A DNA stretch of 64,000 nucleotides from contig NZ_CP168151.1 of NCBI RefSeq assembly GCF_026913205.2, forward strand, positions 186,001 through 250,000, written 5' to 3'. Source of the DNA: Lentilactobacillus sp. SPB1-3. GTDB taxonomy: Bacteria; Bacillota; Bacilli; Lactobacillales; Lactobacillaceae. The notes beneath the pieces were generated by a model. The model did no database searches and was not told the DNA's origin. It worked only from the letters and a program-made list of their open reading frames with translations. The translations under genes and the position numbers were made by a program. The first letter of the stretch is position 1; every line of letters starts with the position of its first letter. Of the stretch, positions 23,119 through 27,162 are shown one piece after another.

Positions 23119-23652
23119 CTATTTAACTCTATATATTTTAGTACTTGTTGGTTCAAAAAAATTATCATTAAGTAACACGAACGTGTTGAACAAATTTATT
23201 AACATTACCGTTAAAGATACCAAAATAATGGTTTTATATAAGCTATTGAATTTATTGTTTCTCCACAGAATATATAACGGTAATAAGATACCAACTATAG
23301 GAATCAACACTGATACAATACAAAGAATGAGTAATATCAAACCTTCATCTTTATTTTGATACAGGTCTTTGTTTGGAGTAGCCAAGTTAGCTTTTCTATC
23401 TAAAATTGTTTTTTTGTCCTCAGCAATTGTTTTAGGAAAATCATGGTTTTCTTTGACTAATTCATCGATGGAAACTTGATATATGTCGCTGAGATAAATA
23501 AGATTATCCAAATCTGGGTATCCTCTTCCATTTTCCCATTTAGAAATTGATTGCCTAGAAATATGTAAGATTGTAGCTACCTCATTTTGTGTTAGATTCG
23601 ATTCTATTCTTGCTTGTTTTAATGTATTTGATAGTTTTCTAATGAGTATCAT
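23119..23652 (-). CDS. XRE regulator with membrane tail (paralogue C)
   Basis: A 177-residue regulator: XRE domain (NLTQNEVATILHISRQSISK, WENGRGYPD), charged linker, then the membrane tail shared with 5279 and 7801 (EGLILLILCIVSVLIP, WRNNKFNSLYK, second helix, STKIYRVK end). The annotated ATG (23650-23652) directly abuts AAAAGG, so spacing is poor; the in-frame ATT nine bases later fits the site better, as in the 5279 paralogue. A plus-strand frame over it is a shadow. Confidence 0.82.
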   Translation of the reverse strand: MILIRKLSNTLKQARIESNLTQNEVATILHISRQSISKWENGRGYPDLDNLIYLSDIYQVSIDELVKENHDFPKTIAEDKKTILDRKANLATPNKDLYQNKDEGLILLILCIVSVLIPIVGILLPLYILWRNNKFNSLYKTIILVSLTVMLINLFNTFVLLNDNFFEPTSTKIYRVK

Positions 23653-24354: not shown

Positions 24355-24391
24355 AAAAAAGGACTACTTACCTTAGCAAGTAGTCCTTTTT
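24355..24391. terminator. Bidirectional terminator
   Basis: AAAAAGGACTACTT pairs with AAGTAGTCCTTTTT. It serves the minus-strand PAS operon and possibly the plus-strand gene at 23974. Confidence 0.88.
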
Positions 24392-24398
24392 CACATGC

Positions 24399-24995
24399 TT
24401 AAGATAGCCACGAGTCTGACGCTCCCGTTGATGCATCTTTAGCAGGTTCTCGATTTGAAGTTTGCGTTTTTTTATCTTGTTCAGGCCCTTTGTCATACTT
24501 TGGTGCGACAAATTTATCTGGATCGTACGTGGATTGTGATGTGCTAGTTGATACATCCGTTCCTAGAATACCATCGAAGGTTGGATTCTCATCAATCAAA
24601 TTAGTGAAGTAATCAAGCTGACCAGTAAAGACTAAAATCCCTAAATAAGTACCATCATCATCTCGTACAGCGAAGTAACCGTTATACGTGTGATGTTTTC
24701 CCGAAATGATTTCGAATTTATCTCTAGAACCGGACTTTAAAGCATCCACCATTTGATATACGCGCGGCAAGACGTTGGCGGGGTGAAGTGCCTCCATGCT
24801 TTCATTAAGTTGATCGGCAGTTCGTGGGTTAATTCGCGATTCTTGATTAGAGAAGTAAATAAAATTATCATTTTCGTCGATAAAGTCAATTTCAAACGGC
24901 ATGACGCTAAAAATGGCCTCAATTTGTTTGAGATCTAATTTACCAGTCTTAAATTGTACTACTGCATCTTTAATATAAGGATTAATGTCAGTCAT
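24399..24995 (-). CDS. PAS-domain protein with C-terminal flavinylation motif
   Basis: A 198-residue cytoplasmic protein. Residues 8-34 are a helical lead (AVVQFKTGKLDLKQIEAIFS), 34-130 a PAS domain of the DUF438-associated type (EIDFIDENDNFIYFSNQ; later GYFAVRDDDGTYLGILVFTG), and 131-185 a low-complexity linker. The last residues 187-193 read DASTGAS, matching the ApbE target pattern Dxx[ST]GA[ST], with the final Ser as likely FMN acceptor, followed by DSWLS. The upstream gene encodes ApbE, 15 bp away. A covalently flavinylated redox sensor or electron carrier is inferred. GAAGG precedes the ATG. Confidence 0.8.
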   Translation of the reverse strand: MTDINPYIKDAVVQFKTGKLDLKQIEAIFSVMPFEIDFIDENDNFIYFSNQESRINPRTADQLNESMEALHPANVLPRVYQMVDALKSGSRDKFEIISGKHHTYNGYFAVRDDDGTYLGILVFTGQLDYFTNLIDENPTFDGILGTDVSTSTSQSTYDPDKFVAPKYDKGPEQDKKTQTSNREPAKDASTGASDSWLS

Positions 24996-25010
24996 AAGAT
25001 TACCTTCTCA

Positions 25011-25961
25011 TCATAAAATTTGATAATCAGAATCAGTTAAAATAAATTTATCTTTGATATCATCGGACACTTCAATGGTGTGATCACTGTAAATAACTAT
25101 AAAACTAACTTGATATCCCAGTTCAGAAGCCATTTTACTTGCTCTGTCGATGCCATTGAAAAAACCAATGCTGGTCCAAATTTCTGCTTCAGTGGAAGTT
25201 GGGGTAATCGCGGTAATACCAGTAATGTTGGTTTCAAATGGGTATCCGGTTAATGAATCAATAATGTGGTGATACATATGATGATTAGTTTTTAAAAACC
25301 GTTCATAGACTCCAGAAGTAACTATGGATGATTCAGGAATAGTTACCACAGCTAAATCATTTCCGCGGGACAATTCGGGATTTTGAATGCCAATATTCCA
25401 CATCCCGTTTTCATGATTGCTTCTGCCAACTAATAAAATATTGCCACCTAAGTTAATAATACCGTTAGTAACGCCTTTACTTAACCAGAACTCTTTAATT
25501 TTATCCGCAATGTATCCCTTGGCAATCCCACCTAAATCAAGTTCCATGTCTGGATTGGTCAGAAATACAGTTTGCTTCACATCGTCTAAAATGATGTTAT
25601 CAGAATTGGTTAGATGTAAGGCGTTGTTTATTTGTGGCTTAGATGGAACGTTTGCACCATCAAAGCCTATTTTCCATAATTTAACAAGTGGCCCAATTGC
25701 GACGTTGAATCCAGCGTGCCAATTGCTAACGATCACGGCTTGTTTAACGATGTCATAAGCTTCAGTGGAAATTTGAATTGGTTTGATACCAGCATTATGG
25801 TTGATATCCATAATTTCTGATTGCTCACGATTGACAGTCAAAATATCTTCGTATTTTTGAATCAGTTCATTTGTTTGGGGTAGAATTTCTGGATCCGATT
25901 GCTCATCAATTGATAAGGTGATTTTGGTTCCTAAACCCGAGTAGATTTTTTGAATAATAAT
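25011..25961 (-). CDS. apbE: FAD:protein FMN transferase (ApbE family)
   Basis: About 316 residues. It transfers FMN from FAD to Ser/Thr of target proteins. Family motifs are in order: GLGTKITLSI, DLGGIAKGYIADKI, SIVTSGVYERF and HHIIDSLTGYPF. There is no signal peptide or lipobox, so it acts in the cytoplasm, matching the PAS target. The start is unusual: AAGGAGG (25973-25967) follows the MFS stop, and the next in-frame codons at start distance are ATT (25961, 25958, 25955); the upstream TTG overlaps the Shine-Dalgarno. It is the middle gene of an MFS-apbE-PAS unit. Confidence 0.88.
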   Translation of the reverse strand: MIIQKIYSGLGTKITLSIDEQSDPEILPQTNELIQKYEDILTVNREQSEIMDINHNAGIKPIQISTEAYDIVKQAVIVSNWHAGFNVAIGPLVKLWKIGFDGANVPSKPQINNALHLTNSDNIILDDVKQTVFLTNPDMELDLGGIAKGYIADKIKEFWLSKGVTNGIINLGGNILLVGRSNHENGMWNIGIQNPELSRGNDLAVVTIPESSIVTSGVYERFLKTNHHMYHHIIDSLTGYPFETNITGITAITPTSTEAEIWTSIGFFNGIDRASKMASELGYQVSFIVIYSDHTIEVSDDIKDKFILTDSDYQIL

Positions 25962-25980
25962 TCGAACCTCCTTCAAATGT

Positions 25981-27162
25981 CTAGTACATTGCTAGTGGCT
26001 TTGCTTTGATTGCTCTAATAAGTAATAGGACGATGACTAAGCTTATCAAAGCGTAGACTGCACCACTTAGACTGATATTGCTAACGCCAACCTTAGCAAC
26101 CATGATTGAGGCGGTGGCGGACCCTAATGAAATTCCAAAGTTGAAGAAAATGGAGTTTAGGGATGATGCCAAAACTAGGGACTGTGGATATTCAGATTCT
26201 GCAAGATTCAAGAAGTGAATTTGAATTGGAGCATTTAATATCGTTACGATTAAAGTTAAGGCCAAAATTACTATTAAAGCAAGGTACTTGAATGGTATAA
26301 GTAACGGTAATGCAATTAATAAGATGATGTCACAAATATAGAAGATAGGCATTTTATTCAGACTATTAGGTAATTCTGCAAGTTTACCAGACATCCGGTT
26401 GCTGATAATACTGAAAATTCCGATGATAAACAGTAACCAATTTAGACTGCCAAGACTGAAGTGCATGCTAGTCGTTAGTAGTGGTCGAATGTAAGTATAG
26501 TAAGAATACATAGTAGCTGCGGTGAACAGAACTAAGCCGATACCGTAATAGATTCGTGGATCTAGTAGTAATGTTAACTGGCTTTTAATAGTGCTGGTAG
26601 TTTGACTAACGTTTTTCGGTAACAGAATTCCTAATGGGATGATGGTCAAAATGCTGACGATTGAAATCATCCAGAACGCATATCGCCAGCCAATACTGGT
26701 ACTAATAGCTACACCGATCGGAACTCCGAACACTGAAGCAATACTGAATCCAGCAAAGATCCATGATACTAAGGCAGCACGTTTGTCTTGTGGTGCGATT
26801 TGGCTGGCAAATGCCATGATCAGAGAAATAATTGAGCCAGCAGTGAGGGCAGTTAGTACTCGAGAAATCAGCATAAACCAAAAGCTGGTTGCCAATGCAC
26901 TTAGTGAGTTACCAATTAAAAAGATAACCATTAATGTCATTAGCGTATTATAGCGACGATACTTACTAGTTAAAATAGTAATGAATGGGGTGCTGATGGC
27001 ATAAACTGTCGCAAAGATGGTCACTAAGTAACCGACTAATGAGATAGGGACACCAAAGGTTTTTGATAGGTCGGATAGCACACCAACCACCATGAACTCG
27101 TTACATCCAAGCATAAATGCTACTAGAACGAAAACGAGTGATTGTAGTCTGAATTTGTTCAA
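25981..27162 (-). CDS. MFS efflux permease (AraJ-like)
   Basis: A 393-residue, 12-helix transporter of the DHA1/AraJ-YdhP type: QSLVFVLVAFMLGCNEFMVV at the N-terminus, then RYNTLMTLMVIFLIGNSLSA, and GFSIASVFGVPIGVAISTSI as motif C. It starts at a TTG seven bases after AAGGA. It is first in the operon with apbE and the PAS gene. What it transports is unknown; a flavin or redox-related metabolite is only a guess from context. Confidence 0.85.
   Translation of the reverse strand: MNKFRLQSLVFVLVAFMLGCNEFMVVGVLSDLSKTFGVPISLVGYLVTIFATVYAISTPFITILTSKYRRYNTLMTLMVIFLIGNSLSALATSFWFMLISRVLTALTAGSIISLIMAFASQIAPQDKRAALVSWIFAGFSIASVFGVPIGVAISTSIGWRYAFWMISIVSILTIIPLGILLPKNVSQTTSTIKSQLTLLLDPRIYYGIGLVLFTAATMYSYYTYIRPLLTTSMHFSLGSLNWLLFIIGIFSIISNRMSGKLAELPNSLNKMPIFYICDIILLIALPLLIPFKYLALIVILALTLIVTILNAPIQIHFLNLAESEYPQSLVLASSLNSIFFNFGISLGSATASIMVAKVGVSNISLSGAVYALISLVIVLLLIRAIKAKPLAMY

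Follow-up and report, generated by a model that had tools for sequence, protein, structure and literature searches.

The window, the whole 64,000-nucleotide stretch of Lentilactobacillus sp. SPB1-3 DNA analysed here, carries on its minus strand, as judged from ORFs and Pfam matches, the gene order MFS transporter (25981–27162), apbE, which encodes a cytosolic FAD:protein FMN transferase (25011–25958), and a PAS_10 protein with a candidate C-terminal flavinylation tag (24399–24995). The transporter gene lies immediately upstream of apbE, a position it also has in L. kosonis, and the PAS gene starts 15 bp downstream of apbE. Directly 3′ of the PAS gene is a perfect inverted repeat flanked by A and T (24355–24391, minus strand), which is terminator-like by eye and is missing from the computed scan's list. 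The three genes perhaps form one transcript.

The PAS protein has 198 residues, as delimited by its ORF, Pfam match and homologues. PAS_10 is the sole domain found by Pfam (E 1.5e-15, residues 26–123; 58.2 bits against the PF13596 cut-off of 22.1), and FMN_red (PF03358) is absent. In an AlphaFold model built from 13 sequences, the PAS domain, comprising residues 13–124 in agreement with the family model (24624–24959, minus strand), is ordered with pLDDT mostly of 71–91; the tail, residues 137–198, is predicted to be disordered (pLDDT about 32–42; mean of the whole model 64), which bears out the flexible linker that the initial annotation had placed after the PAS domain. The closest folds to the PAS domain in a structure search are 2qkp and 3cax.

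Alignment of the minus-strand tail reveals a decayed first tag, DVSTSTS, at residues 147–153 (24537–24557), where relatives have DTSTGAS or DATTGAS, the linker motif FVAPKYDK at residues 162–169 (24489–24512), the acceptor tag DASTGAS from D187 to S193 (24417–24437) and, 3′ of the tag, the C-terminal DSWLS (24402–24416). The C-terminal 12 residues are DASTGASDSWLS. The fit of residues 187–193 to the ApbE acceptor motif Dxx[ST]GA[ST], as that motif is given in the accessible part of a 2025 review (PMC12052999), had been noticed before and is confirmed from the ORF and the alignment; Ser193 is the expected site of FMN attachment.

The adjacent ORF (25011–25976, minus strand) matches the Pfam ApbE family with E 3.6e-69, and its best solved relative in a structure search is 7esa/7f39, given as Listeria ApbE in the available text of PMC12052999. 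No signal peptide or lipobox is recognizable in it by eye, in line with the cytoplasmic location first proposed, so that enzyme and tag share a compartment, and it is the only ApbE that a profile search finds in this genome. The ORF opens with TTG at 25976, just before and adjoining the Shine-Dalgarno sequence GGAGG (25967–25971). The end at 25961 assigned earlier implies an ATT start, and homologues back an ATT at 25958 or 25961. GGAGG stands 8 nt before the ATT at 25958 and, with equal spacing, before an ATC in L. kosonis and in one further genome (G001), both of which have no in-frame ATG, GTG or TTG between the upstream stop and the ATC, and the codon aligned with it in the apbE of S. silagei is ATG. 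From this comparison, apbE probably starts at AUU in the window and at AUC in L. kosonis (L111) and G001 (L033). In the L. kosonis assembly, apbE and the preceding MFS gene are each split across two frames (L111 3836–5984), and these two splits may be sequencing errors.

Secreted ApbEs carry Asp in an (A/G)D(A/G) motif; in 35 of 36 ApbE rows from lactic acid bacteria, which include one gene twice, Glu stands in its place. The only row with Asp (L106) shows a lipobox by eye, and Glu in this position is possibly a signature of cytosolic ApbE. A 626-aa protein in another genome (G020; L110 6094–7971) has what looks by eye like a LysR-like helix-turn-helix N-terminus, apparently fused to ApbE.

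The nearest named relative of the window, L. kosonis with 76% identity, places it in Lentilactobacillus; the genome comprises 1.93 Mb in one contig. Searched as a degenerate DNA pattern, the acceptor motif has 9 sites in this genome, against 8 for a reversed-pattern control; because the motif itself is not rare in the genome, its weight rests on conservation. Four of the nine sites are located in the tails of two PAS proteins, one in the window protein and three in an FMN_red-PAS protein; among the remaining five, three fall in ORFs of 351, 436 and 79 aa, none of them PAS-like, and two lie where no ORF of at least 60 aa reads the motif. Shuffling of the window tail produces the motif in 0.2% of cases.

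The second tagged protein (G000:C1:265323-266777) contains an FMN_red domain (residues 6–152), a PAS_10 domain (249–358) and three copies of DASTGAS. Its gene, about 54 kb from the PAS/apbE pair, is preceded by genes for a 208-aa FMN_red protein and a 463-aa FrdA-like FAD_binding_2 protein, the latter with no FMN_bind match in Pfam, and by a gene that, from its sequence, we take to be fumC. FMN_bind (PF04205) has zero matches in the window protein by Pfam and in the whole genome by profile search, so that no FMN_bind-type system was found here. In three Lentilactobacillus species a short-chain dehydrogenase gene precedes the short PAS gene (L112–L114 5075–5877; called by Pfam for L112 and by eye for L113–L114), and a gene similar to it adjoins the FMN_red-PAS gene of the window genome on the opposite strand.

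Matches to the window PAS protein occur in 28 of 60 genomes, its own included, and at 26 named loci. Merging of copies and addition of four plasmid loci gave 71 PAS rows, reduced to 69 when two pieces of a broken gene (L136) were dropped: 38 fused to FMN_red, 20 short, and 11 long with the PAS domain at the C-terminus, which we take to be DUF438-type, a name also found in plasmid annotations. The rows leave out a weak PAS match in a 315-aa frame (G019:C120) and count as it is the later ORF of the L. parafarraginis gene (L037/L135), which has an in-frame stop early in its PAS part; three of the plasmid rows (L137, L138 and L140) were picked out of 444 and 23 records that matched.

At least one canonical tag is present in 50 of the 58 short or FMN_red-fused tails (116 tags in total), namely in 17 of the 20 short proteins (28 tags) and 33 of the 38 fused ones (88 tags), counts that are not independent trials because the rows are related. 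Shuffling the 58 tails 1000 times gives at most 3 tags, and none of the 11 DUF438-type relatives has a canonical one; on these two controls, a chance motif and a generic feature of PAS_10 were both rejected. The five fused proteins that lack a canonical tag bear near-canonical variants, and the largest array (L098) has six canonical tags, or seven near-canonical ones. Homologues lacking the motif had been named in the initial annotation as grounds for refutation; they do exist, as three short proteins, one with a lost tail in a genome without ApbE (L041 in G002) and a near-identical pair (L029, L139), against the 17 that are tagged. Untagged short PAS_10 genes lie near the ferrochelatase gene hemH and a permease gene (L050 4184–7583, L139 1388–4462), with hemH annotated in L139 and recognized by eye in L050, and the L. 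panis copy is located on a plasmid; from this context a haem link of the untagged proteins is possible.

In a 13-row alignment D187, T190 and S193 are invariant and the linker drifts. A terminal tag with GPS goes with an internal tag with GAS, and the reverse is seen in the window protein and L. kosonis; some tag sites have GPS, SSAS, TSAS or ASAS instead of GAS. All five short proteins adjoining apbE share the AP[KQ]YDK linker motif and a WLS end, and three other Lentilactobacillus proteins end in RWIP. Judged by sequence, the acceptor tag is a family trait of Lactobacillales PAS proteins, and the window protein represents one variety of a PAS_10-tag module that is widespread and more often fused to FMN_red. 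A single origin of the short forms was rejected, as a PAS tree of 119 columns requires that proteins switched between the short and the fused form several times; open forks and long branches blur the direction and number of these switches.

ApbE occurs in 42 of the 60 genomes and FMN_bind in 31. Tagged PAS proteins, canonical in 21 genomes and with variant tags only in 4, occur in 25 of the 42 genomes with ApbE and in none of the 18 without it (Fisher 6e-6, kinship uncorrected), so the search of homologues for co-occurrence proposed at the outset had a positive outcome. Within the genus the corresponding numbers are 10 of 14 and 0 of 10 (Fisher 6e-4, kinship uncorrected). These tables take one genome (G023) as ApbE-positive despite an apbE split across two frames. 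The four ApbE-positive genomes of the genus without a tagged PAS protein (G009, G014, G020, G022) all contain FMN_bind. Ten of the 11 genomes that have ApbE and lack FMN_bind encode a tagged PAS protein, including one with variant tags only (G035) and the one with the split apbE, and the eleventh (G045) has an ApbE that is of the lipoprotein type by eye. The named genomes tested have ApbE in 12 of 12 cases and FMN_bind in 11 of 12, so the PAS protein is not the sole candidate substrate there.

At 27 of the 38 FMN_red-fused loci apbE lies on the same strand within 1.7 kb; five tagged short genes adjoin it, and it is not found in the stretch read around the other 12 of the 17. In both Secundilactobacillus genomes with a short PAS protein in which the surroundings of apbE were read, fumC-frdA lie about 3 kb from it. 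Chromosomal and plasmid copies alike keep the order with FMN_red and ApbE, and a trio of apbE, an FMN_red gene and a gene for FMN_red-PAS-tag is found on plasmids of Lactococcus lactis, Enterococcus faecium and Lacticaseibacillus paracasei, set among IS elements in the latter two. On the E. faecium plasmid (L138) the trio lies between IS1216 copies and the tags read DAVSSAS, DAVTSAS and DAVSSAS, with no Gly. In lactobacilli, FMN_red, FMN_bind and FAD_binding_2 are also fused in three different orders in single chains; a 1020-aa ORF of S. collinoides, for example, runs FMN_red, PAS_10, tags, FMN_bind and FAD_binding_2, and a 249-aa FMN_red protein with three tags and no PAS match adjoins apbE in another genome (G012). 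These layouts suggest a place for the tail FMN between an NAD(P)H-oxidising FMN_red and an FAD-dependent reductase.

That the window PAS protein is flavinylated is highly probable: the basis is the motif, its conservation, the co-occurrence with ApbE and the gene linkage, all read from sequence. The chemistry of an ApbE-modified tail is not new, since two tailed FMN_red proteins of Lactococcus (WP_021723379.1, WP_205872264.1) are described in the accessible text of PMC11334425 (mSystems 2024) as flavinylated by their cognate ApbE in E. coli. They resemble the window protein in having the tag on an unstructured C-terminal extension with the cognate ApbE nearby, but unlike it they contain an FMN_red domain. 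A relative of this class encoded on an L. lactis plasmid, WP_011915228.1, has FMN_red, PAS_10 and two tags; the whole word PAS is absent from the main text of that paper. According to the available part of the 2025 review (PMC12052999), a tag of 7 residues is enough and does best when placed at a terminus, and ApbEs that act in the cytosol on a soluble target have been described, as for the soluble fumarate reductase of Klebsiella. That system, like the one in the window, combines a cytosolic ApbE with a cytosolic redox substrate. In the Klebsiella enzyme the FMN sits in its FMN_bind domain, whereas in the window the predicted site is on the tail of a PAS protein. As for the new kind of carrier or sensor proposed at first, the motif is real and conserved, but the protein is not a one-off, and both the flavinylation of tailed FMN_red proteins and cytosolic ApbEs with soluble targets were known already. 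Among the texts within reach, which leave out most subscription journals, none was found that connects flavinylation with LjPAS or another natural PAS protein, and the link is likewise absent from the accessible text of PMC4521753, PMC8965153, PMC11509896, PMC12504390 and PMC8238504.

LjPAS from Lactobacillus johnsonii, reported in 2015 together with PAS-FMN_red fusions, slows the formation of the active, H2O2-forming FRedA/B reductase, according to the accessible text of PMC4500961. Purified LjPAS preincubated with FRedB halves the initial rate and improves the solubility of FRedA, and has no effect after the dimer has formed. Its regulation is given inconsistently in that text, as repressed anaerobically in the abstract and as a 3-fold drop of the transcript on aeration in the results. 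The protein was purified from E. coli, the listed production strains carry no apbE plasmid, and the terms ApbE, covalent and flavinyl do not occur in the text of PMC4500961 as available; the purified LjPAS presumably lacked FMN.

The forward qPCR primer for LjPAS matches exactly in 2 of 397 genomes of the family, and the reverse primer in one; the assignment of the LjPAS genomes rests on these primer matches. The gene so identified encodes a 244-aa PAS protein with the tail tags DATTGAT, DTATGAS and DTSSGAS and the end SGASEY. Since the 3′ cloning primer, as given in the accessible text, also encodes SGASEY when its other strand is read by eye, the published LjPAS itself ends in a tag. Both genomes have a single ApbE, on the same strand as two adjacent FMN_red genes and about 2 kb from them with two genes in between; one of these FMN_red genes begins with the published FRedB primer. 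Like the window protein, LjPAS is a PAS_10 protein on its own with C-terminal tags, its gene is separate from those of the FMN reductases, and the genome has an ApbE. It differs in its 244 residues and three tags, in that its sequence is much closer to the PAS protein fused to FMN_red than to that of the window, and in that apbE is not found in the 8 kb read around its gene.

The window PAS protein is fairly probably a substrate of the cytosolic ApbE that acts as a carrier of tethered FMN for FMN_red and FrdA-like reductases. The adjacent ApbE would transfer FMN from FAD to Ser193 in the disordered tail. It is moderately likely that the PAS domain then docks on FMN_red and that the tail, as a tether, shuttles electrons; the tail FMN would take them from the NAD(P)H-dependent FMN_red reductase and hand them to the FrdA-like FAD_binding_2 reductase or to oxygen, a direction of flow that we infer. 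The window protein would be a detached form of the FMN_red-PAS-tag proteins. Against this explanation stand the roughly 54 kb between the PAS/apbE pair and the FMN_red/FrdA locus, the 12 of 17 tagged short genes with no apbE in the stretch read, the FMN_bind in 11 of 12 named genomes, the departures from GAS at some tag sites and the Glu in place of the secreted-type Asp in 35 of 36 ApbE rows, as does the purified LjPAS, made without the L. johnsonii ApbE, which in the available text slowed FRedA/B and did not drive it. An FMN_red-type reductase of lactobacilli is also seen in the NADH-dependent hydroxycinnamate reductase HcrAB of L. plantarum, which combines a COG0431 (FMN_red-like) domain with an FMN reductase as partner; no PAS-tag is described for it in the accessible part of PMC10295242.

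The LjPAS data point as well to a regulator, in which the PAS-tag protein would bind the FMN_red subunits and set the speed of dimer formation, while the FMN of the tail would either load the FMN site or block it. The halved rate and the better solubility of FRedA (PMC4500961, accessible text) agree with such a role, as do the three tags of LjPAS itself. A regulator is nevertheless unlikely, as it has no obvious need for as many as six canonical tags in tandem, LjPAS is inert on the dimer once formed, and the single chain of S. collinoides places PAS and tags between FMN_red and FAD_binding_2.

A redox, oxygen or light sensor, with the tethered FMN folding into the PAS pocket in the manner of LOV or NifL and signalling to a partner, is improbable. 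It would draw on the PAS fold, on the flavin PAS protein NifL (2gj3) among the weaker fold matches (E about 1e-3) and on an engineered LOV domain that, in the accessible part of PMC10722498, holds ApbE-attached FMN in its pocket. The LOV construct is likewise a PAS-superfamily domain with covalent FMN from ApbE, but it is man-made with the motif cut into the domain, whereas the tag in the window is natural and on the tail. A sensor is opposed by the lack of an output domain, by the wide variation in tail length, tag number and tag position with a tail predicted to be disordered, and by the distance to the nearest regulator-like gene, a helix-turn-helix gene (23119–23652) about 0.75 kb off, past an ORF on the opposite strand. 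Where the initial annotation had left the choice between sensor and carrier, the gene context fits a carrier better, both being readings of the sequence. Very improbable is a role of the tail tags outside electron transfer, as an incidental sink for ApbE or a store of flavin. In favour of it, a drifting tail can easily gain or lose short tags, and some are decayed; against it, terminal GPS is paired with internal GAS, with the reverse in the window protein, and chromosomes and plasmids preserve the gene order with FMN_red and ApbE.

There is about an even chance that Lactobacillales PAS proteins whose tails bear between one and six or seven covalently flavinylated tags, LjPAS included, are soluble swinging-arm FMN carriers, fused to FMN_red or detached from it, and would form a class of cytosolic electron carriers outside FMN_bind and the extracytosolic paradigm. 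The PAS tail tag has the look of a natural counterpart to the flavin-tag built by engineers. In genomes with ApbE and no FMN_bind, the tagged PAS protein offers a substrate for the enzyme in 10 of the 11 cases seen here; a gap of this kind was left by Meheust et al. 2021 for 4% of their genomes (PMC8238504, accessible text). The tags also recast LjPAS and the H2O2-forming FRedA/B system, in which the published LjPAS was made without its ApbE. If they are indeed carriers, swinging-arm PAS proteins would bear on H2O2 formation by lactobacilli.
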